From: Planctomycetota bacterium
GTDB lineage: Bacteria > Planctomycetota > Phycisphaerae > Phycisphaerales > UBA5793
Direction: 5' to 3'
Assembly (NCBI GenBank): GCA_963205185.1
Contig: CAUJHZ010000046.1
Span: 1-64,000, forward strand
DNA: 64,000 nucleotides
In this document: positions 24,911 to 37,386 of the stretch, piece after piece
How the letters are laid out: every line of letters begins with the position of its first letter
How positions within the stretch are numbered: the first letter of the stretch is position 1
Program-made: the position numbers and the translations under genes
Notes under the pieces: generated by a model
The model's input: only the letters and a program-made list of their open reading frames with translations
Databases searched by the model: none
What the model was told of the DNA's origin: nothing

Positions 24911-27019
24911 TTACGCTCCGGCGGGCTGGACGGTGTAGTGGCCGATGCCGGTCGAAGAAGCGATGGGTTCGTGGCGGTCGTGCTCTTCGCCGTAGCGCAC
25001 GAGGCGGAAGGAGTTGGCGATCACGAAGACATCGCCGAATGAGTGGTAGACGGCGGCCCAGAAGATCATGCTGCCGCCCAGCTGTCCGCTGGCGGCAAGC
25101 GTGATGCCGATGATCGCGATGACGATCGAAGCGATGATGTTCTGCGTGATGACCATGCGCGTCTTGCGGGCCAGTTCGAGCAGGAAAGGCAGCCGGTCGA
25201 GATCGTCGTTCATCAGCGCGATGCCGGCGGAGTTGGCTGCGATGTCGGTGCCGCCCAGGCCCATGGCCACGCCGACGTCGGCCGCGGCCAGCGAGGGGCC
25301 GTCGTTGATGCCGTCGCCGACCATCATGACGCGACGGCCGCTGCGGGTGAGTTCAACGATGCGCGCGTGCTTTTCTTCCGGGTGGCACTCGGCCTCGATG
25401 TGGTCGATGCCGACGACCTGTCCGACGCGCTTGGCCACCGGCAGCCGGTCGCCGGTGAACATGCACACGAGGCGCACGCCCAGTTCGCGCAGGCGGGCCA
25501 CGGCGCCGGGCGCCTGCTGGCGGACCTTGTCCTCGAGGCCGACGGCGCCGAGGTACTTGCCGTTGCGCATCACGTGCACGCCGGTCATGCCCTCGATGCG
25601 GCCCTCGACGGCGGCGATCTGCTCACCGATGGACGAGTCGATGCGCTGGAGCCACTTGGCCCGGCCCACGTAGAGCGTCTCGCTGCCCTGCGTGACTTTC
25701 ACGCCCAGGCCGTGCACCTCTTCCGCCTGCCCCTCGCGCGGCGGGGTGATGCGCGCGGCGCGGGCTGTTTCGAGGATCGCCGCGGCCAGCGGGTGATTCG
25801 AATGCTGCTCGGCCGTCGCGGCGGCGGTGAGCAGATCAGCGCCATCCACGCCTTCGGACGGCGCGAGGCGGCTGACCGCGAAGTGGCCGGTCGTGATCGT
25901 GCCGGTCTTGTCGAGCACCACGGTGTCGATGCCTGCAGCCGTATCGAACACGGTCGTGCTCTTGATCATGATTCCTAGGCGGGCGGCGGCGGCGAACGCA
26001 GCCACCATCGCCGTGGGCGACGCCAGCAGCAGCGCGCCCGGGCACGTGACCACGAGCACCGAGATGGCTTTTTCGATTGCGGTCTGCGAGCCGGTCACGT
26101 CGCCGGGCGTGTTGGAGAGAATGAACACCGCCAGGGCCACGAACAGCACGATCCACACGTAGTGGCTGGCGACCAATTCGATGATCTGCTGGCGCGGCGT
26201 CTTGGACTGCTCGGCTTCGTTGATGAGATTGACAACCTTGCCGATGGTCGTGTCTTCGCCGACGCGCGTCACTTCAACGTCGATCACGCCGGTGAGGTTC
26301 GTCGTGCCGGCGTAGACCATCGAACCCATCTCGACTTCGACGGGAGCGGATTCGCCGGTCAGGCTGGCCTGGTTGATCGTCGTGCGGCCGGTGGCGACGC
26401 GGCCGTCGGCGGGGAAGTTCTCGCCGGCGCGGACGCGGATGATCGTGCCGACTTCGAGTTTGTCGAGATCGATCTCGCGCTCGACGTCGTCGATCACCAC
26501 GCGAGCGGTGTCGGGCGTCAGTCCGACGAGCTGTTCGATGGCGCGGTGGGCGCCCCAGGCGGTGCGGCGAAGCACGGCATCCATGAGAAAGAGAATGAAC
26601 GCCAGGCCGCCGGCGACGGCGTACTTGCCCGTGGCCAGGGCGGCGCCGATGGCCAGGGCTACGAGCACCGAACTGCTCGGCCGGCCCTTCTTGATCTCCC
26701 GTCCCGCCGCCATGAGCAGCGGAATCCACAGCAGCACCGCCCCGATCGCGGCGGGTATCACGCGGATTTCGTCATCGAGGCCGAAGAGCCCGGCGATCAC
26801 CGTCGTGAGCACCATCGCCCCGCCGACGAGCGCGAAGACGATCGAACCCTCGGAAGAATTGGTGCTGTGCATTTCGCAGCAACTGGCGTCGTGGATGTGC
26901 TGGTGCTTGTGGCCGGGGCCGCCGTGGCCGTGGCTGTGATCGTGCCCCGCGTGGTCGTGCGCGTGATCATGGGAGTGATCGTGGGGCTGGGAGGCAGGCG
27001 GGGAACCGGCTTGAGACAT
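24911..27019 (-). CDS. P1B-type heavy-metal ATPase with His-rich N-terminus
   Basis: A 702-residue metal-pumping P-type ATPase from ATG 27019 (GGAG upstream). The first 60 residues are dominated by HDHSHDHAHDHAGHDHSHGH-type repeats and then CC, a probable zinc, nickel or cobalt reservoir replacing a ferredoxin-like metal domain. The phosphorylation motif DKTGT (Asp370), TGES, the SNHPLAA loop and GDGINDGPSLAAADVG are intact. The membrane metal motif that is usually CPC, SPC or CPH reads Thr-Cys326-Pro-Gly328 (TCPGALLLASP), so the cargo cannot be inferred from it. Efflux of a divalent metal is most likely. It is followed by an intrinsic terminator and appears monocistronic. Confidence 0.9.
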   Translation of the reverse strand: MSQAGSPPASQPHDHSHDHAHDHAGHDHSHGHGGPGHKHQHIHDASCCEMHSTNSSEGSIVFALVGGAMVLTTVIAGLFGLDDEIRVIPAAIGAVLLWIPLLMAAGREIKKGRPSSSVLVALAIGAALATGKYAVAGGLAFILFLMDAVLRRTAWGAHRAIEQLVGLTPDTARVVIDDVEREIDLDKLEVGTIIRVRAGENFPADGRVATGRTTINQASLTGESAPVEVEMGSMVYAGTTNLTGVIDVEVTRVGEDTTIGKVVNLINEAEQSKTPRQQIIELVASHYVWIVLFVALAVFILSNTPGDVTGSQTAIEKAISVLVVTCPGALLLASPTAMVAAFAAAARLGIMIKSTTVFDTAAGIDTVVLDKTGTITTGHFAVSRLAPSEGVDGADLLTAAATAEQHSNHPLAAAILETARAARITPPREGQAEEVHGLGVKVTQGSETLYVGRAKWLQRIDSSIGEQIAAVEGRIEGMTGVHVMRNGKYLGAVGLEDKVRQQAPGAVARLRELGVRLVCMFTGDRLPVAKRVGQVVGIDHIEAECHPEEKHARIVELTRSGRRVMMVGDGINDGPSLAAADVGVAMGLGGTDIAANSAGIALMNDDLDRLPFLLELARKTRMVITQNIIASIVIAIIGITLAASGQLGGSMIFWAAVYHSFGDVFVIANSFRLVRYGEEHDRHEPIASSTGIGHYTVQPAGA

Positions 27020-27215
27020 CGCAGACTTCTCCAGATGGGCAGCGGCCCGGAGTCGAGGCGGGAACCGTAGGCCCGGCGGCACAGCGAGTCCGGGGGCGAT
27101 CTATCGCGATACGGGCTCGGCAGGCGCCCGGTTCGACGGGATCGGGCAATTCCAGCGCCAGGTCGCGGGCCAGCCGCACGACCGATGCATCGGGGGCGGT
27201 CGCATATCATCGGTC

Positions 27216-27527: not shown

Positions 27528-27923
27528 TCACTCCGGAATCTGCACGACGTTGCTGGTCTGGCAGACGTAGGTGGTGTTGAGCACCATGAGCTGAAGGTAG
27601 CCGCCGCACGCATCGGGCGAAGCGCTACCCGTGACGGACCCGGAGCCCGCGGACCGGGTCGAAACGACGCGCACCAGACGCACGCCGCTCATGCCGATCC
27701 ATGTTCCCTCGCAGACGCGGATGCTGCGCGACAGTCCGAGGTCTTCGCCGTAGAGGATCGCCATCTGGCGGTTCGGCTCAGCGCCACTCCAACGCAGTGT
27801 GAGTTCGCCAGGGCACTGACCCGCAACTTCAAGGTTCAAATCGCCAGCGCTTGCCGGGAGGGAGCATGCCGCAATAGTCCCAGCCGCAGCGATGCACGAC
27901 ACGAATCCACGTGATGTGTTCAT
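27528..27923 (-). CDS. Small secreted protein of unknown function
   Basis: 131 residues with a signal peptide (about 1-26, ending SLPASAG) and a mature domain containing CPGELTLRWSGAEPNRQMAILYG, then CEGTWIG, CGGYLQLMVLNTTYVCQTSNVV. This Cys-containing beta-rich pattern recurs in secreted planctomycete proteins, as far as I recall, but I cannot name a family. The four Cys of the mature part could form two disulfides. ATG 27923 has GAGGAG upstream. It lies between the FmdB-like gene (convergent) and the ABC permease. Confidence 0.7.
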   Translation of the reverse strand: MNTSRGFVSCIAAAGTIAACSLPASAGDLNLEVAGQCPGELTLRWSGAEPNRQMAILYGEDLGLSRSIRVCEGTWIGMSGVRLVRVVSTRSAGSGSVTGSASPDACGGYLQLMVLNTTYVCQTSNVVQIPE

Positions 27924-28059: not shown

Positions 28060-29355
28060 TCAACCCACTTCGCGGGTCTGGAAGAGGATGACGGCCAGCG
28101 AGAGCATGCCCGAGATGTAGAGCAGGCTGTAGAGGCCGACGAGACCGAGGTGCGTGGGCGGGATGAAGTGCCCCTGGTTGAGCGCATCGCCGAACGACAT
28201 CGCCTGCAGATTCGGCGGGACCGACCAGGCGATGCGCCACAGCGAGTGCACCCGCTGCGGACCGTCGATGAGATAGTCATCGATCCGCGGCGGCCGCTCC
28301 ATCGGATCGTCGCCGCGCTTTACGAGATCGGCCGTGTTGTACGACACGCTCTTGAGCACGGCCTGGCCCGGGCCGAGCAGGCCGAAGCCGAGGTTGTCCG
28401 AAGAGAGGTAGACGGGTTCGTCGTCGGTGATGTCGATGCCGCGATCGACGGTGATGTGATACGTGTCGCCGTCATCGCTGAAGTTGTCGTTGTGATCGTC
28501 GATGACGTTGATGGCGAGGATGCGGCCGCGCGACTTGGATTCAAACGCCCGCCGGCCGAAGAGCGTGTCGGTGAGCAGCCCGGCCATGAAGACCACGAGG
28601 CAGACGACCACGGTCATAACCTGCCCGAGGCGCGTCGAGGCGGCCAGCGCCACGGACGCAATGACGAGCAGCGCCAGAAACACGCCGGCGAGCGCCAGGA
28701 CGATTTGCGGATCGAAACTGCCCGAGATCATCCTCATGGTGCCAAACGGCGTCTCCATGGGTTCGAACATCTGGAACTTCCATTCCTTGTCGAACATGAG
28801 AACGCCGATCCAGGCGAGAATCGAGAGCGGCAGCATGGCGCCGACGGCGGTGCTGGTAAAGACCCAGCCATAGAAGAAGTTGCACCAGATGCCAATGAGC
28901 AGCGAGCCGCAGAGGGCGATGAGGCCAAAGACGATCACGGGCATGTCGGCGCTGTCCCGGGCCGTCTGCATGACGCCATAGCGCTTGATGAGCAGAAAGG
29001 TGCAGGACATGATGATGGCGGCGACGACGATGGCCGACGCCACGCCGACGTACTTGCCCAGCACGAATACCGGCCGGCCCACGGGCTTGGAGACCAAAGC
29101 CAGCACCGTCTTGTTCTCGATTTCGCGCGTCACCACGCTCGTGGCCACGAAGGCGGCGATGATCAACCCGCACAGGAAAATCGTCGCCAGGCCCATGTCA
29201 ACCATGAAGAGGTTGTCGTCCGAGAGCGTGAAGGTGCTCAGGCCCGGCGTAATAAGGAGCGCAATGAGCCCGATCCCCAGCATCACAAGGTAGATCGGCT
29301 GGCGGATGCTCTCGAGGAACGTGTTGCGGACGATAGCGAAGAACTGCTGGAACAT
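28060..29355 (-). CDS. ABC-2 type transporter permease
   Basis: A 431-residue permease. Helices lie near residues 18-40, 55-75, 100-122, 140-165, 170-190, 215-240 and 245-262, followed by a soluble region (about 270-395) and a final helix (about 405-425). The ABC-2 coupling segment REIENKTVLALVSKPVGRPVFVLGKYVG matches the equivalent RDKQIFQIASKPLSRFKYLMGKWIG in the permease at 35371-37386, so they are homologues. It is divergent from the SPFH-ABC operon with a 320-base shared spacer. No ATPase is adjacent on this strand, so it may use the one at 34125. Confidence 0.85.
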   Translation of the reverse strand: MFQQFFAIVRNTFLESIRQPIYLVMLGIGLIALLITPGLSTFTLSDDNLFMVDMGLATIFLCGLIIAAFVATSVVTREIENKTVLALVSKPVGRPVFVLGKYVGVASAIVVAAIIMSCTFLLIKRYGVMQTARDSADMPVIVFGLIALCGSLLIGIWCNFFYGWVFTSTAVGAMLPLSILAWIGVLMFDKEWKFQMFEPMETPFGTMRMISGSFDPQIVLALAGVFLALLVIASVALAASTRLGQVMTVVVCLVVFMAGLLTDTLFGRRAFESKSRGRILAINVIDDHNDNFSDDGDTYHITVDRGIDITDDEPVYLSSDNLGFGLLGPGQAVLKSVSYNTADLVKRGDDPMERPPRIDDYLIDGPQRVHSLWRIAWSVPPNLQAMSFGDALNQGHFIPPTHLGLVGLYSLLYISGMLSLAVILFQTREVG

Positions 29356-29675: not shown

Positions 29676-31778
29676 ATGCGAATCAATCACGAGACATACA
29701 GGCGGGCCGCGGTGGCGGCCATCTTCGCCTCCATCTTCCATCTCGTGCTCACCGCGGTTGTCTTCATGCTCGGCTTCGTCCTCAAGGACGACGCCACGCG
29801 CATTGCCGCCTATTCAATGCTGTGCGGCATCCCCGTCTGGGTCGTCCTCATCCTGCTGTTCCACCAGCACCGGCTCGAGCGGCTCGAGTCGCTCGAACAC
29901 GAACAGCTGCGCACGCGCGCCGAAGCCACCGGCAGCATCTTCGACTTCGACGAAAACGAAGTTCCCCAGCACGCCAGCCGCCTGAAGTGGATGCACCGCT
30001 ACCTGGTGCCGGCCTCCAGCCTCGTCATCGCCGCACTGCTCATCGCCATCGGCTGGTGGCAGCGCGGCGTGGTCTCCTCGCGGGGCGACTATGGCGCCGT
30101 GGTTGCCGGCGCGGGCTCAGCGGGTTATGGCGTGGGGATCACGGCGGCCATCGCGCTGGTCTGCTTCGTCGTCTCCTGGTTCCTCGGCGGAATGAGCCGC
30201 CAGCCGTCGTGGCGGCTTCTGCGCGCCGGGGCGACGGTCACCATCGGCGCCGCCCTGCTCAACGCCGCCCTCGCCGTGGGCTACGGCTTCCGACTCAACG
30301 GCAACGAAGACGTCCTGGCCGCACTGGCCTACGTCTTTCCGATCTACATGATCGTCCTCGGCCTCGAGGTGATTATCGCGTTCGTTCTCAACCTCTACAC
30401 GCCGCGCAAGCCGGGCGAATACCCGCAGCCGGCATTCGATTCGCGCGTCCTCGGGTTGCTCGCCGCTCCGGAATCGGTCGTCAAGTCGATCAACGACGCG
30501 ATCAATTACCAGTTCGGCTTCTCCGTCACTTCGACATGGTTCTACCAGTTGCTCAGCCGGCAGATTCTGCCGCTGCTGGGATTTGTCGTGCTGCTCATTG
30601 CCCTGCTGCGGTGCGTGGCGATCGTGCAGCCCGGCGAGCAGGCGATCGTGACGTCGTTCGGCGATCTGCGCCGCGACGGTCACGTGTTCGAATCCGGCGC
30701 GGTCATCAAGTGGCCCTGGGAGCGGCTCGAGCGCTACCCGGTATCGCAGATCCACCAGGTGCTTGTCGGCACGGAGAGCGAAGACGGGCACACGAAACTG
30801 GATGAGCAGGCGCCGATCCTCTGGGACAACGCGCACACGCTGGGCAGGGAAGAACTGATCATCGTCGGCCCGGGGTGGATCGGCTCGGAGCAGGAGACGG
30901 AGAACTCGGGCTTCGGCAATCTGGCGCGGAGCATCGCGGTCGTGAACGCCGAGGTGCCCGTGCAGTTCCGCATCAAGGATGGCCGGGACGCCGACGGAAA
31001 CTCCGAACTGCTCAACTACATCAACTTCGTCGGCGGCGACGTCAGCCAGCGTGAAGCGCTCATCCGCCAGATTGCCACGCGCGTGGTGAATCGCCGGCTC
31101 GCAGGCATGTCGATCGAGCAGGTGCTCGGGCCGAGGCGGGCCGCGCTTTCCGACGACCTTCGCGCGCGAATCCAGGCGGAACTGGACCGGTGGAACTCGG
31201 GCATCCAGGTCGTGTTTGTCGGCGTCGCGGGCATCCACCCGCCCAAGGACGTCGCGGCGAGTTTCGAACAGGTGCTCGAAGCCCGCGAGACGCGGGAATC
31301 GACCATCCAGGATGCGCTGCGCGTCGCCACCGAGCGGCTCGCCAAAGCCGCCGGCTCGGTCGAGCAGGCGCAGGCGATCGCGCGCGAGATCGACAAACTC
31401 CGCAGCATCGGCCTGAGCGACGAGGGCTATGCCGAACAGTCGCTGGTGGTCGAGCGCGTGCTCCTGCAGGCGGGCGGTTCCGCGGCGAGGGAGATTCTCG
31501 AAGCCAAGGCCGACCGCTGGACCACGCAGAACGACAAACTGGCCACGGCCATCCGGCACAACAGCCGTTTGATGCCCTATGAACAGGCGCCGGAGTTGTA
31601 TTCCGTGCGCGAGTATCTCAGCACCCTGCGCCGCGCGCTTCAGGGCCGGCAGCTGGTCATCATCCCCGACGGGGTGCCGGCGCGCACGACCATCGATCTC
31701 AAGCAGGATCCGACGATGATCAACCTCACGGACATCAGCGCTTCCGCGGATGCGGCCGAGAGGTTGCGAAACGAATGA
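29676..31778 (+). CDS. Polytopic membrane protein fused to an SPFH/Band-7 domain (HflK-like)
   Basis: 700 residues. The N-terminal 300 hold five to six hydrophobic segments (about 10-32, 40-60, 110-130, 145-168, 182-202 and 215-240), an architecture not typical of HflK. A further helix (about 290-312) leads into a Band-7 domain (IVQPGEQAIVTSFGDLRRDG ... GAVIKWPWERLERYPV), then a long Ala/Glu/Arg coiled coil (about 515-610). SPFH proteins form large membrane cages around proteases or microdomains. A GTG nine codons upstream is possible, but ATG 29676 has GAGGGC upstream. It heads a six-gene run with two further SPFH genes. Confidence 0.85.
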   Translation: MRINHETYRRAAVAAIFASIFHLVLTAVVFMLGFVLKDDATRIAAYSMLCGIPVWVVLILLFHQHRLERLESLEHEQLRTRAEATGSIFDFDENEVPQHASRLKWMHRYLVPASSLVIAALLIAIGWWQRGVVSSRGDYGAVVAGAGSAGYGVGITAAIALVCFVVSWFLGGMSRQPSWRLLRAGATVTIGAALLNAALAVGYGFRLNGNEDVLAALAYVFPIYMIVLGLEVIIAFVLNLYTPRKPGEYPQPAFDSRVLGLLAAPESVVKSINDAINYQFGFSVTSTWFYQLLSRQILPLLGFVVLLIALLRCVAIVQPGEQAIVTSFGDLRRDGHVFESGAVIKWPWERLERYPVSQIHQVLVGTESEDGHTKLDEQAPILWDNAHTLGREELIIVGPGWIGSEQETENSGFGNLARSIAVVNAEVPVQFRIKDGRDADGNSELLNYINFVGGDVSQREALIRQIATRVVNRRLAGMSIEQVLGPRRAALSDDLRARIQAELDRWNSGIQVVFVGVAGIHPPKDVAASFEQVLEARETRESTIQDALRVATERLAKAAGSVEQAQAIAREIDKLRSIGLSDEGYAEQSLVVERVLLQAGGSAAREILEAKADRWTTQNDKLATAIRHNSRLMPYEQAPELYSVREYLSTLRRALQGRQLVIIPDGVPARTTIDLKQDPTMINLTDISASADAAERLRNE

Positions 31779-31821: not shown

Positions 31822-32775
31822 ATGAACCGAATCGCCATGTACGTCATCGCGGCCATAGTCGCCATCACCCTGCTGCTGTTCACCTGCACGTTCCAGGTGC
31901 GCTTCAACCAGACGGCGATCGTGACGACCTTCCGCAAGATCGGCCGCGTGGTCGAGGAGCCCGGCCTGCACTTCAAGTGGCCGTACCCCATCCAGTCCGT
32001 CAAGCATTACGACTCGCGCGTGCGCGTGCTTGAGACGCGGCTCGAGAACGTGATGACCAAGGACAGCCAGCTCGTCATCGCGCAGGTGTTTCTCGCGTGG
32101 AAGATTGAAGATCCGCGGACCTTCTTCCAGGTCATCACTTCCGAGGCGAGCGCGGACAAGCGGCTCAACGAGCGGCTGCGCTCGGCCCTCGGTCTGTTCG
32201 CCGAATACGACTTCCATGACCTTCTCACCAGCGAAACCGGCGAAAGCGGAGCCGGCCAGAGCAACCTGGCTGCGATCGAAAGCCGCATCAAGGAACTGCT
32301 CGAAAACCCTTCGGACCAGGCGGCGGGCGTGGAGTCGGCGTACGGCATCAAGCCGGTGGCCGTGGGCATCAGCCGCTTCATTCTGCCCGAGAACACGAGC
32401 AAAGCGGTTTTCGAGCGGATGAAGAAGACGCGCGAAACGATCGCAGCCGACACCTCCTCATCAGGCCAGGCCGAAGCCGAGCGCATAACGTCCAAGGCTG
32501 AGAGCGATGCGCGAACGATCGAATCGTTCGCACGCGTGCGGGCCGACGCCATTCGCGCTGAAGGTGATCTCGAAGCCGCCGCGCTCGCCGCCCAATTGGC
32601 GCGCAACGAACGCTTTGCGATTCTTCTGCAAAAGCTCCAGGCGCTCGAAGCCATCATCAGCAAGGACACGAAGGTCATCCTGCCCGCTTCGCAGTGGCCC
32701 TTTGACATGCTCATGGGACCCGATGGAATGCCCATCAAGATCGCGGCTCCACAGCGCGCGGAAGGCGGCAACTGA
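31822..32775 (+). CDS. SPFH/Band-7 protein, HflC-like
   Basis: 317 residues, the length of HflC. One N-terminal helix (about 5-23), then the SPFH domain: FNQTAIVTTFRKIGRVVEEP, GLHFKWPYPIQSVKHYDSR, RLENVMTKDSQLVIAQVFLAW. After it comes a helical stretch with AEAERITSKAESDARTIESF and the ending VILPASQWPFDML, close to the HflC C-terminus (ERMKKTRE...). GGCGGAGGC precedes ATG 31822. In E. coli HflC pairs with HflK and FtsH, and here both neighbours are SPFH proteins. No FtsH is encoded in the window. Confidence 0.9.
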   Translation: MNRIAMYVIAAIVAITLLLFTCTFQVRFNQTAIVTTFRKIGRVVEEPGLHFKWPYPIQSVKHYDSRVRVLETRLENVMTKDSQLVIAQVFLAWKIEDPRTFFQVITSEASADKRLNERLRSALGLFAEYDFHDLLTSETGESGAGQSNLAAIESRIKELLENPSDQAAGVESAYGIKPVAVGISRFILPENTSKAVFERMKKTRETIAADTSSSGQAEAERITSKAESDARTIESFARVRADAIRAEGDLEAAALAAQLARNERFAILLQKLQALEAIISKDTKVILPASQWPFDMLMGPDGMPIKIAAPQRAEGGN

Positions 32776-32778
32776 TCC

Positions 32779-34086
32779 ATGGCTGAAGATCAGCACAACC
32801 CGATTCCGCCGGGCGGAGATCCGGGCCCGATCCATCGGCCGGCCCAAGCGGGTCGCCCGTTCGCGCCGACGACGACCGCCGATGATGAGTTCGACCCGGC
32901 CAACCGTTCGCTTGCCAGCGCGCTGCGCATCTCCTTTGTCGCGCTGCAGGTGGTCATGGTCATTCTCGTGGCGATGTACTTCTTCTCCGGGCTGCGCCAG
33001 GTGCCCGAGCAGTCGCGCGGGCTGCGGCTGCTCTTCGGCCGGCTGCAGGACGCGACCCCGCTCGAAGCGGGAGGCTATTTCGTCTGGCCCTATCCGATCG
33101 GCGATTTCATCCTCGTGCCCAGTTCGCAGCAGTCGGTCGAGGTCGATGAGGCCTTCTGGCCCCAACTCAGCGACCTGCAGAAAGCCAAGCCGTTCACGAG
33201 CCTGACCGAGACGGAAAAGTTCACCCTCGTGCCCGGCAAGGACGGGTCGGTCATCACCGCCGACCACAACCTCGCGCACACCAAGTGGAACGTGCAGTAT
33301 CGCATCGTCGACGCCCGCCAGAACCAGGAGACGGTTCCGCTCCTGGAGAACCAGCCCCTGGTTCGCAGCGCTGTCGAACGGGCGGTCGTGCTCGGCGCCG
33401 CCGAAACGACGCTGGACGAGATCATCCAGTCGCGCGACCGGCTCAGCGGCAAGGTGAAGGCGTACGCCCAGGAGTTTCTTGATCGCATTCAATGCGGCAT
33501 CGAAATCTCCACGGCCACCTATGACGCCTACCCGCCGGTGCCCGCGCAGGCCAGTTACGAGCGCGTCAACCAGGCGCACGTCGAATCCGCACAGGGCAAG
33601 GTCGAGGCGGAGCGCCAGGCCAGCGAGATTCTCAACGCGATGGCCGGGCCGGCCCACCAGCGGCTCAGCGCGCTCATCAGCGAGTACGACCAGTTGCTCG
33701 CGCTGGCCAAGGTCGATCCCGACAAGCATGCCGCCGCGGAAGCGAAGCTGCAGGAGATCAACGACCTGCTCTTGAGCGACGCCGTCGGCGGCAAGGTGGC
33801 GACGATCATCGGCACGGCGCGGAGCGATCGCGGCGAACTGGTATCCGGCTTCCGCAGCGACCTGGCCCGCTTCAACGCGTGGATCGACCGCTACGAAGAG
33901 AATCCCAGCCTGGCGACGGCCCTGCTCTGGTCGGAGATGATGGTCAACATCTCGACCAAGGACCTTGAGTGGTTCAGCATCGCGCCCGGCACGACGCAGA
34001 TCGACATCGAAATCAATCCCGATCCCGAGCGGGCCCGGCGCATCAAGAGCGAAGAGTACAAGAAAGCGGGTCGGGCGTCGCCCTGA
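32779..34086 (+). CDS. SPFH/Band-7 protein, HflK-like
   Basis: 435 residues starting 3 bases after the HflC-like gene. A proline-rich cytosolic N-terminus (1-45), as in HflK, precedes one membrane helix (about 52-70) and the Band-7 domain (VPEQSRGLRLLFGRLQDATP, GGYFVWPYPIGDFILVPSSQ, TADHNLAHTKWNVQYRI). The region after it (AAVPAQASYERVNQAH-like, coiled coil about 265-350) again follows HflK. The C-terminal DLEWFSIAPGTTQIDIEINP is not part of classical HflK. GGAAGG precedes the ATG. It is the third consecutive SPFH gene. Confidence 0.88.
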   Translation: MAEDQHNPIPPGGDPGPIHRPAQAGRPFAPTTTADDEFDPANRSLASALRISFVALQVVMVILVAMYFFSGLRQVPEQSRGLRLLFGRLQDATPLEAGGYFVWPYPIGDFILVPSSQQSVEVDEAFWPQLSDLQKAKPFTSLTETEKFTLVPGKDGSVITADHNLAHTKWNVQYRIVDARQNQETVPLLENQPLVRSAVERAVVLGAAETTLDEIIQSRDRLSGKVKAYAQEFLDRIQCGIEISTATYDAYPPVPAQASYERVNQAHVESAQGKVEAERQASEILNAMAGPAHQRLSALISEYDQLLALAKVDPDKHAAAEAKLQEINDLLLSDAVGGKVATIIGTARSDRGELVSGFRSDLARFNAWIDRYEENPSLATALLWSEMMVNISTKDLEWFSIAPGTTQIDIEINPDPERARRIKSEEYKKAGRASP

Positions 34087-34124: not shown

Positions 34125-35366
34125 ATGAGTCCTGTCGATTCCACAACTCGAACTCCGGTCGTCCTCGCGCAGGGCCTGACCAAAGTCTTCTCCGACTTCT
34201 GGCTCCGCGCGCAGGTGCGCGCCGTGGACAATCTCGATCTGCGCATCGAGCCGGGGCAGATCTTCGGGCTCATCGGGCCCAACGGCTCGGGCAAGAGCAC
34301 GACGATCAAGATGATCCTCGGCCTGCTGCACAAGACCTCGGGCCGGCTTTCGGTGCTGGGTAAGCAGCCTTCGGACATCGCCGCCAAGAAGCGCATCGGC
34401 TACCTGCCGGAGGAGTCGTACCTCTATCAGTTCCTGAACTCGCGCGAGACGCTGGACTTCTACGCCAAGCTGTTCGGCTACCCGCGGGCCACGCGCCGCC
34501 GCCGCATCGATGAACTGCTCGAGATGGTCGGGCTCGACGCGGTGGCGCATCGCCCCGTCGGCCAGTTCTCCAAGGGCATGCAGCGCCGCGTCGGCATCGC
34601 GCAGGCCCTCATCAACGACCCCGAGTTTCTCATCCTCGACGAACCCACGTCCGGCCTTGATCCTTTGGGCATTCGGCAGGTCAAAGACCTCATCATCGAT
34701 CTGGGCAAGCGCGGCAAGACGATCCTGCTCAGTTCGCACCTGCTCTCCGAGGTCGAAGATGTGTGCGACTCGATGACGATTCTCTACGGCGGCAAGAAGC
34801 GAGCCGAAGGCACGCGCGACGAGCTGCTCACCGCCGACGATCGCACGATCATCGAAACCGAAGCACTCTCGCAGGCCGAGGCGGATGACATCGCCCGGTT
34901 CATCGAGCAGAAGGAAGGCCGGCGCATCATTCGCGTCGCGCCCGCGCGGCAAAGCCTCGAATCGCTGTTCATGTCGATTGTCGAAAAGGCCCAGGCCGAA
35001 CGCGTCAAGACGTCCGGCGCCGGGCGCGGCGGGCCGACTGCGGCGTTCCTGCGCGGCGTCGAGCCTGATTCCGAGCGAAGCGGCGACAAGGTCATCGCCG
35101 ATCTGATGAAAGAACCCGAAGTCCCCGCCACTTCGCGAGCCGAGCGCCCCGCGGCCGATCAATCGCAACAGGCGGACAAGCCGAATCAGTCGGTCCTCGA
35201 CTCGCTCGTGGACAGCGGCCAGGCGCCGGCGGCCCGGCCGGCCGATCGATCCAAGGAGCCGGCGCCGAAGCGAGAGCGCACCGCCGAAGACGTCGATCGC
35301 TCGGTGCTCGACTCGCTGATGGGCGGCTCGCAGGAATCTCCGGGCGACAAGCGCGAGGAGAGGTGA
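34125..35366 (+). CDS. ABC transporter ATP-binding protein with long C-terminal tail
   Basis: 413 residues from ATG 34125. The nucleotide-binding domain (about 12-235) has Walker A GPNGSGKST (51-59), signature FSKGMQRRVG, Walker B LILDEPTSGLDP and the switch His in LLSSHLLSEV. This is the NatA/GldA/CcmA-like branch that drives ABC-2 permeases. A domain of about 80 residues follows, then a disordered Pro/Ala/Glu tail containing two copies of S-V-L-D-S-L (NQSVLDSLVDSGQ and DRSVLDSLMGGSQ), possibly short docking motifs. The next permease begins 4 bases after its stop, which is strong evidence that they work together. Confidence 0.93.
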   Translation: MSPVDSTTRTPVVLAQGLTKVFSDFWLRAQVRAVDNLDLRIEPGQIFGLIGPNGSGKSTTIKMILGLLHKTSGRLSVLGKQPSDIAAKKRIGYLPEESYLYQFLNSRETLDFYAKLFGYPRATRRRRIDELLEMVGLDAVAHRPVGQFSKGMQRRVGIAQALINDPEFLILDEPTSGLDPLGIRQVKDLIIDLGKRGKTILLSSHLLSEVEDVCDSMTILYGGKKRAEGTRDELLTADDRTIIETEALSQAEADDIARFIEQKEGRRIIRVAPARQSLESLFMSIVEKAQAERVKTSGAGRGGPTAAFLRGVEPDSERSGDKVIADLMKEPEVPATSRAERPAADQSQQADKPNQSVLDSLVDSGQAPAARPADRSKEPAPKRERTAEDVDRSVLDSLMGGSQESPGDKREER

Positions 35367-35370
35367 TCGC

Positions 35371-37386
35371 ATGATCGACCGTCTCTTCGAGATGCTCTCG
35401 CGCCTGAATCGGCTCCAGCAGGGCCTGCGGTTCAAGATCGTGGCGACGGCGCTGGGCCTGATCGCGGTGACCGTCGTGGCCATCCTGGCCGCGCGCACGA
35501 ATCTCGCCTGGATGCCCGAGACGCTGTCGAGCAACCTCGTGAGCAGCGCCGTGATCGGCGCCCTGGCGGTGGTCGGCGTCATCTGGCTGGGCCGCACGCT
35601 TTCCGCTGCGGGTATTGCCGTCGTCGCGCTGCCGTTCTGGTTCGTGTTTCGAATGCTGGACATGGAACTCTGGGCCCAGATCGCACTGGGCATCGGATCG
35701 CTGAGCATTCTCTTCCTGGTGCTCATTCAGGTCGCCCGGCTCCTGCTCTCGGCCCCGATCGGCCCGCTGGCGGTCGCGCGATTCGTGCTCGATGAAGCGG
35801 TGCGGATGAAGCTCGCGCTCGTCTTCATCGTCCTGCTCATCATCTACATTCCTTTCCTCGCCACCCAGCTCGACACGCACGAGCGGCTGCAGTATCGCGT
35901 GCAGACGTTCCTGAGTTACGGCACGGGAGTGAGCTACGCGCTGCTGGCCGTCATGACGGTCTTCCTTTCCACGGCGACGGTGGCATTCGAGCAGCGCGAC
36001 AAGCAGATCTTCCAGATCGCCAGCAAGCCGCTGAGCCGTTTCAAGTACCTCATGGGCAAGTGGATTGGCCTGGCGGTGCTGAACGGCCTGCTGCTGCTCA
36101 TGACCGGCGGAGCCATCTTCTGGTTCACCCAGTACCTGCGCACCCAGCCGGGCATGGACGCCTACGACGAGATGGCCGTCACCGAGCAGGTGCTCACCTC
36201 GCGCATCGGCGTGCGGCCGACGGTGCCGGATTTCCGCGAAGAAGCCAAGGCGCGCGCAGCCCAGCGGGCGGCAGAAGATCCTGAACTCAAGGACAACCCC
36301 ACCGCCATCGCGAATCTCGCCAACGAGATGCTCAGCGAACTCCAGTCGCAGATGCTCTCGATCCCGCCCGGCGAATACCGCGAGTACCTCTTCGAGAACG
36401 TCACGCCGATCTCGCGGAGCTTCAAGACCACCGTTCACTTCGACGGTGAGCCGATCGTGGTGCCCTCGCGCATTCAGTCGCCGTTTGACTTGATGGTCAG
36501 GAGCGAAGACGGCGAGACTTTCTACGTTCCCCAGACGCCGTCCCAGCCCGGCCAGTTCCAGCTCGGCTTCGCGGAGGACGCCACGCTCATTCGCTTCATC
36601 CCTCCCGATTCGCAGCAGACGTTTCCGAATCCGCTGCGCGAGGGCCAGACGGTGCGCATCGAGTACTACCCGGAGAACGCGCTGACGCTTCGCTACAAGC
36701 TGAACTCGGGCCAGGACATGCCCGATGTCTCGGTGCCGATCACGATCTGGCTGGAAGGCAACGTCATCATGCCGCAGGAAGCGGTTCTCGTGCAGACGCA
36801 GAACGTGATGATCCCGGCAGGATTCGTGAACGACGATCACACCCTGAGCGTGCGCATCGCCAACGGAAACATGAACACAGGGCAGGTGTACGGCGAGACG
36901 ATCACCATCCCGTGGGATGGCCTCGAGATCATGTACAAGGTCGATACGTTCGAGGCGAACTACTTCCGCGCCATGCTCATTGTCTGGCTCAAACTGGGCT
37001 TCCTCGCCATGCTCGGCATTGCCGCCGCGACGTTCGCGAGTTTCCCGGTGGCGTGCCTGCTGGCGTTCACGATCTTTTTCGGCGCCGAATCGGCGCCATT
37101 CCTGGCCGCGTCGCTGGAGAACTTCGACAAGGTCGATCCCGTAACGAAAGAGCGGTACTACTTCAACACGATCATCTGGGAGATCGCCTCGGCGATGCAG
37201 TGGCTGCTGCGGCAATACGGCAGCGTGCGACCGACGCAGAATCTCATCGAGGGCCGCAACGTTTCGTGGGCGGTGGTGTCGCAGACGTTCATTTGGATCT
37301 CGGTATTGTGGACCGGGCTCACGGCCTTCATCGGATGGGTGATCTTCCGGGCCCGGCAACTGGCTATCTACTCGGGGCACGCATGA
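35371..37386 (+). CDS. ABC-2 permease with large non-membrane domain
   Basis: 671 residues. About seven hydrophobic segments occupy residues 18-250, ending with the ABC-2 coupling segment EQRDKQIFQIASKPLSRFKYLMGKWIG and two further helices. Residues about 255-525 are soluble and probably extracytoplasmic, beta-rich (TVHFDGEPIVVPSRIQSPFDL ... WLEGNVIMPQEAVLVQTQNVMIP). Helices near 535-565, 570-590 and 640-660 close the protein. GAGGAGAGG precedes the ATG, 4 bases after the ATPase stop. Its own stop overlaps the next start as ATGA. The cargo is unknown. The architecture resembles gliding/Nos-type ABC-2 systems more than drug exporters. Confidence 0.88.
   Translation: MIDRLFEMLSRLNRLQQGLRFKIVATALGLIAVTVVAILAARTNLAWMPETLSSNLVSSAVIGALAVVGVIWLGRTLSAAGIAVVALPFWFVFRMLDMELWAQIALGIGSLSILFLVLIQVARLLLSAPIGPLAVARFVLDEAVRMKLALVFIVLLIIYIPFLATQLDTHERLQYRVQTFLSYGTGVSYALLAVMTVFLSTATVAFEQRDKQIFQIASKPLSRFKYLMGKWIGLAVLNGLLLLMTGGAIFWFTQYLRTQPGMDAYDEMAVTEQVLTSRIGVRPTVPDFREEAKARAAQRAAEDPELKDNPTAIANLANEMLSELQSQMLSIPPGEYREYLFENVTPISRSFKTTVHFDGEPIVVPSRIQSPFDLMVRSEDGETFYVPQTPSQPGQFQLGFAEDATLIRFIPPDSQQTFPNPLREGQTVRIEYYPENALTLRYKLNSGQDMPDVSVPITIWLEGNVIMPQEAVLVQTQNVMIPAGFVNDDHTLSVRIANGNMNTGQVYGETITIPWDGLEIMYKVDTFEANYFRAMLIVWLKLGFLAMLGIAAATFASFPVACLLAFTIFFGAESAPFLAASLENFDKVDPVTKERYYFNTIIWEIASAMQWLLRQYGSVRPTQNLIEGRNVSWAVVSQTFIWISVLWTGLTAFIGWVIFRARQLAIYSGHA

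Follow-up and report, generated by a model that had tools for sequence, protein, structure and literature searches.

The window analysed here, a 64,000-nucleotide stretch of a Phycisphaerales planctomycete genome, contains a gene (SPFH1) whose product joins an SPFH domain to an additional N-terminal membrane module of six helices. This module is likely a distant homologue of the cation diffusion facilitators (CDFs), and the canonical metal site of that family is lost. SPFH1 belongs to a locus that is conserved over the phylum and consists of an ABC-2 permease, three SPFH genes, an ABC ATPase and a second ABC-2 permease. We tentatively propose that the degenerate CDF-derived domain may act as a membrane adaptor, linking a cage of the HflK/C type to the export proteins encoded alongside it. 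The architecture of the protein, its topology pattern, the CDF fold, the loss of the canonical site, the conservation and the gene linkage are supported by computation. The features involved are the following.

24911..27082, minus strand: heavy-metal P1B-type ATPase with a CPG motif and a His-rich N-terminus (TIGR01512/TIGR01525)
28060..29355, minus strand: ABC-2 type permease A, 431 aa, divergent (PF12679 E 2e-7, above cut-off; 11/12 family members match)
29676..31778, plus strand: SPFH1, six-helix CDF-like module, HflK-like TM helix and Band_7/SPFH domain, 700 aa
29688..30413, plus strand: six-helix module of SPFH1, residues 5-246, with the fold of the CDF/SLC30 transmembrane domain (VIA-align against YiiP 8f6k_B; hhalign against planctomycete CDFs)
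30366..30368, plus strand: codon of Glu231 in TM6, the sole invariant acidic residue within the membrane (95/95)
30393..30566, plus strand: linker, residues 240-297, conserved and predicted to be cytoplasmic (conservation; positive-inside charges)
30570..30626, plus strand: TM7, the HflK-like helix, residues 299-317
30621..31313, plus strand: Band_7/SPFH domain, residues 316-546, followed by a helical C-terminal region (Pfam; structural matches to HflK)
31822..32775, plus strand: SPFH2, HflC-like, 317 aa, one TM (TIGR01932 hflC 129.4 bits, slightly below the cut-off of 134.4)
32779..34086, plus strand: SPFH3, HflK-like, 435 aa, one TM (Band_7 E 1.7e-15; TIGR01933 70 bits)
34125..35366, plus strand: ABC transporter ATPase, GldA/DrrA-like (Pfam ABC_tran 1.2e-33)
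35371..37386, plus strand: ABC-2 type permease B, 671 aa (the window's copy matches PF12679 weakly; 8/11 family members match)

The open reading frame of SPFH1 is real, and orthologues that begin with the same pattern support its ATG at 29676. A Band_7 match (PF01145; E 5.7e-19, 69.3 bits against a cut-off of 23.6) assigns the protein to the SPFH/Band_7 superfamily, and its structural matches comprise HflK (7vhq, 9cz2), prohibitin and stomatin. The score against the HflK equivalog TIGR01933 stayed below the cut-off (90.1 versus 159.4 bits), and with its seven helices SPFH1 departs from the single N-terminal TM of HflK. Hydropathy revealed six N-terminal peaks (residues 13-31, 43-61, 110-128, 152-170, 184-202 and 220-238) followed by one at 299-317, and all seven recurred in the profile averaged over an alignment of 29 orthologues. 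The helices predicted by AlphaFold2, mostly with a pLDDT above 90, coincide with these peaks. Mean numbers of Lys and Arg were 2.1, 6.8, 2.2 and 7.3 for the inside segments and 0.6, 1.7 and 1.0 for the outside loops; a predicted topology with a cytoplasmic N-terminus and a periplasmic Band_7 domain, as in HflK, fits the positive-inside rule. The initial annotation had described a polytopic region ahead of an HflK-like helix and a Band-7 domain at these coordinates, which are correct, and hydropathy, charges and AlphaFold2 all bear this out, the N-terminal segments being predicted to span the membrane. Its estimate of 'five to six' extra helices can be narrowed to six, with the HflK-like helix as the seventh. 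That the extra module is confined to the first of the three SPFH proteins also held, as SPFH2 and SPFH3 have one membrane segment each, and the distinction it drew from HflK, HflC and flotillins on account of this module is supported.

The structure of the module was predicted with AlphaFold2 from residues 1-292 and 75 orthologues, and the module alone reached a pLDDT of 91.9 and a pTM of 0.86. Both this and the full-length prediction gave a six-helix CDF fold. In VIA-align, the best match of the predicted module was YiiP (8f6k_B; Z 18.8, rmsd 3.1, 202 residues), and the full-length model likewise reached Z 18.8 to CDF. The top 29 structural matches of the module were all CDFs, with Z falling from 18.8 to 8.1 while the first unrelated protein scored 7.7; the CDF structures matched were YiiP, ZnT1, 3, 4, 7, 8 and SLC30A10. 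Foldseek returned a probability of 0.99-1.00 against CDF chains, yet an E value of 0.06, which is weak alone, and the claim on the fold therefore rests on the VIA-align Z scores, their clean separation and the profile tests. In the latter, hhalign aligned the module with 15 ordinary planctomycete CDFs across TM1-TM6 (score 41.7, P 5e-5), compared to at most 25.2 for control comparisons in local mode with reversed profiles, 60 block-shuffled profiles and other locus families. In one orthologue, L086, the module taken by itself exceeded the Pfam Cation_efflux (PF01545) threshold (27.0 versus 26.6 bits), and a custom CDF HMM scored it at 29.5 bits in an unchanged register. The same Pfam family was matched at E<=1 by 9 of the 75 orthologous modules, and SPFH1 of the window gave no PF01545 match. 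The fold match, the profile comparison with its controls and the passage of L086 over the Pfam threshold together make a distant homology of the module to CDFs likely. Searched by sequence against solved structures, the module gave weak matches only (NPC1L1, E 0.022). An origin of the six helices from an ABC-2 permease was rejected, the profile score being no better than the controls, and a Pfam match to LRR19-TM (18 modules, best E 0.0011) was taken as hydrophobic chance.

CDFs bind the transported metal by Asp and His residues of TM2 and TM5 (PMC5666860). In the hhalign register, the TM2 ligand pair corresponds to Ser47/Gly51 and the TM5 pair to Val188/Ala192 of the window protein. Among 95 sequences, the second TM2 ligand site (position 51) is Gly in 90, His occurs at position 47 in 15 and at position 188 in 10, and the residues listed for the TM5 Asp site (position 192) do not include Asp; none of the sequences has an Asp/His ligand pair in either TM2 or TM5 (0/95). 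Three distant SPFH1 members have a Cys-x-x-x-Cys, in TM5 only. Since the canonical ligands are lost, a conventional CDF transport cycle is unlikely on sequence grounds; loss of the canonical site is not proof of loss of transport. The module might instead be an active, non-canonical transporter that moves a cation or a proton via Glu231 and neighbouring residues of TM6 and TM5. Consistent with this, the six-helix CDF fold is intact, Glu231 stands alone as an invariant TM6 Glu with Asn at position 235 in 67/95 sequences, and a heavy-metal P-type ATPase is encoded nearby. In addition, a canonical CDF (PF01545) was not found in the window's genome, compared to 128 of 149 sampled planctomycetes that have one. 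However, apart from the absence of paired ligands, ordinary CDFs co-occur with the fusion in many planctomycetes, and a C-terminal regulatory domain was not seen: between TM6 and the SPFH helix there is a linker of about 60 residues with no Pfam match in that stretch. Altogether, we regard active transport by the module as distinctly improbable.

Despite the loss of the metal site, the module is under strong constraint, judged from the alignment. Its mean column identity is 44%, compared to 36% for the whole protein over the same 75 sequences, and conserved positions include L-R-x-G at the start of TM5 and Q64, H65, E71 and E74 at the end of TM2. The linker carries the motif Y-x-PR-x-x-GE-x-P-x-PAFDSR...NYQFGF...WFY (residues 240-297). 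Because the module is the better conserved part and the linker, predicted to be cytoplasmic, contains invariant residues, specific contacts are suggested. The higher conservation also argues against a passive anchor that would merely shape or stiffen a lipid patch within the cage, its CDF likeness reflecting ancestry or helix packing and no partner being bound. Such a role would agree with the organization of membrane patches by SPFH proteins (PMC12344292) and with the lack of an evident active site in the module; we consider it rather remote.

SPFH1 is present in all 61 genomes sampled from the Phycisphaerales, as assigned by record titles (61/61; that of the window and 60 others), and the module occurs in 77 of 392 planctomycete genomes spread over the phylum. 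A search for stand-alone homologues of the module yielded zero copies in these 392 genomes. Candidates were rejected as short ORFs at contig ends (G415:C112 and G010:C27) or as fusion genes split between frames (G163 and G226; at the respective loci, L211 and L212, the two-frame split falls within the module and may reflect a frameshift, a sequencing error or a genuine split), and the weakest module match, G063, has an SPFH-like region fused as well, as judged by eye. No module homologues were found in the plasmid records or viral contigs searched. A scan of genome contigs gave 396 relatives, and the best 80 of the 396 bear a planctomycete or an unclear label. One locus, L033, is labelled Vicinamibacteraceae (Acidobacteria) and has 69% identity to the window; it probably stems from a mislabelled planctomycete genome. 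As a family, the SPFH1-type fusion was not found in Pfam or NCBIfam, and no annotated family with exactly this fusion came to light. Both parts of SPFH1 are of known kinds; a search of open-access papers yielded no description of their fusion or of the locus.

Linkage was counted only on those Phycisphaerae contigs long enough to show the given neighbour. Permease A is located upstream of SPFH1 in 73/74 loci and is divergent in 72/73; SPFH2 follows in 73/73, SPFH3 in 69/69, the ABC ATPase in 65/66 and permease B in 64/65. The sole Phycisphaerae locus seen with three SPFH genes but without adjoining ABC genes is L105 (10001-15000). Among 20 distant loci sampled over the phylum, SPFH1 and SPFH2 are adjacent in every case (20/20), and most of the other locus genes are present on contigs that extend far enough, the gaps falling mainly at contig ends; neither permease A nor B is seen at L162. 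Because of this strict linkage, we propose the ABC-2 exporter as the candidate client of the cage, and the degenerate CDF domain with its conserved linker as the surface that would contact it. The window also encodes a 131-aa protein with a signal-like start (27528-27923, minus strand), flanked by the genes of the P-type ATPase and permease A, and a similar sequence occurs in just one related locus, L033.

In many of the 20 distant loci, an orthologue of the P1B ATPase separates SPFH3 from the ABC ATPase, and in other Phycisphaerae it is encoded beside permease A. Full-length ATPases from these loci scored 403-504 bits against that of the window, and those of the window's own genus higher, versus 180-264 bits for the four P-type paralogues elsewhere in the window's genome. 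The locus ATPases formed one clade in a tree, apart from the four paralogues. As the orthologues occupy differing positions in the locus, the linkage has outlasted several rearrangements. In most Phycisphaerae loci, the P-type ATPase does not occur within 10 kb, and it is hence a non-obligate neighbour. The ATPases of the window's genus have CPG where CPC is usual and a very His-rich N-terminus, while those of related loci have CPC, CPS or TPC. At the TM8 motif, the enzymes of the window's genus share a His with most locus orthologues; Zn/Cd ATPases have an Asp at this position.

The initial annotation had suggested that the extra module could serve an SPFH cage as an internal receptor or gate. 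In terms of proteolysis, the three SPFH proteins would then be the genome's HflK/C around FtsH, and the module would bind or admit membrane-protein substrates at the rim. The trio is HflK-, HflC- and HflK-like, and a Band_7 search of the genome found only two other SPFH proteins, one flotillin-like and the other unassigned. No HflK/C-like set besides the trio was found in the genome and a single FtsH gene is present, so that a role with FtsH is also natural. In E. coli, FtsH lies inside HflK/C, a cage with an opening for substrates (PMC12048511), which would fit as well. However, FtsH is encoded on a different contig with no linkage to the trio seen, the linkage that is conserved is that to the ABC-2 exporter, and a transporter fold would be unusual for a protease receptor. 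We thus hold a proteolysis receptor to be unlikely, if the most serious of the alternatives. The evidence favours an adaptor for the co-encoded transporters at least as strongly, owing to the combination of a CDF fold that has lost its metal site with near-perfect linkage to the ABC-2 exporter and often to a P-type ATPase. Another SPFH protein of the window's genome, 528 aa long (L145, contig C76), has two hydrophobic segments next to each other and gave no match in NCBIfam.

HflK and HflC, modulators of the FtsH protease, form the SPFH3 subfamily in an earlier classification (PMC2636767), a name not to be confused with the gene called SPFH3 here. SPFH1 resembles them in its Band_7 domain with a helical C-terminal region and one TM directly before the domain, and hflK- and hflC-like genes adjoin one another in both cases. 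In contrast to HflK/HflC, SPFH1 has six more N-terminal helices with a CDF fold, and its locus includes a third SPFH gene and is linked to ABC-2 and P1B transport genes. With CDFs such as YiiP/FieF, ZnT/SLC30 and SLC30A10, the module shares the six-helix TM fold and a sequence similarity that is distant but above controls. It differs from them in lacking paired TM2/TM5 metal ligands and in being fused to an SPFH protein, and in that no C-terminal cytoplasmic domain was detected among Pfam matches after TM6. Members of the SPFH1/2/5 subfamilies are paired with NfeD proteins, as in QmcA-YbbJ (PMC2636767), and there too an SPFH protein and a membrane partner share an operon. In those pairs the partner is separate, whereas here the polytopic part is a CDF-like module within the fusion; the neighbours found to be conserved are the ABC-2, ABC ATPase and P1B ATPase genes.

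According to the adaptor model, SPFH1 would be an HflK-type cage subunit whose N-terminal TM domain derives from a CDF of the YiiP/ZnT family. Together with the HflC-like SPFH2 and the HflK-like SPFH3 it would form a periplasmic SPFH cage, and the six-helix module and the conserved linker would occupy the membrane and the space beneath it at the rim of this cage. There, they may bind and hold the ABC-2 exporter, which consists of an ATPase and two permeases; the heavy-metal P1B ATPase may be held likewise in many planctomycetes. Inside the cage or next to it, the transporters could then work, or be protected or regulated. We infer the mixed cage, the physical contact with ABC or P-type transporters and the adaptor role; gene linkage is not proof of contact, and the non-obligate P-type ATPase, the absence of ABC genes at L105 and of permeases at L162 speak against the model. 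A precedent is provided by ZnT6, a CDF protein that acts as auxiliary subunit of ZnT5 in the ZnT5-ZnT6 heterodimer (PMC5666860), and the module may by analogy be an auxiliary transporter partner, although ZnT6 is eukaryotic and has no SPFH fusion. Furthermore, SPFH rings have been proposed to enclose membrane proteins (PMC12344292), as HflK/C of E. coli does with FtsH (PMC12048511). A bolder version of this model, to which we give little credence, is a supercomplex in which a cage, with a built-in CDF domain that works through a relocated site at Glu231, houses both the ABC-2 exporter and the P-type ATPase and controls the traffic of metals or substrates across the inner membrane.

What SPFH cages contain is a long-standing question, and FtsH is the main established client in bacteria. 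The linkage of SPFH1 to one defined ABC exporter, almost without exception, names a candidate client that is testable in a cultivable planctomycete. Moreover, as a CDF domain that is devoid of its metal site and still strongly conserved, the module can help to separate the scaffold and transport roles of this fold.
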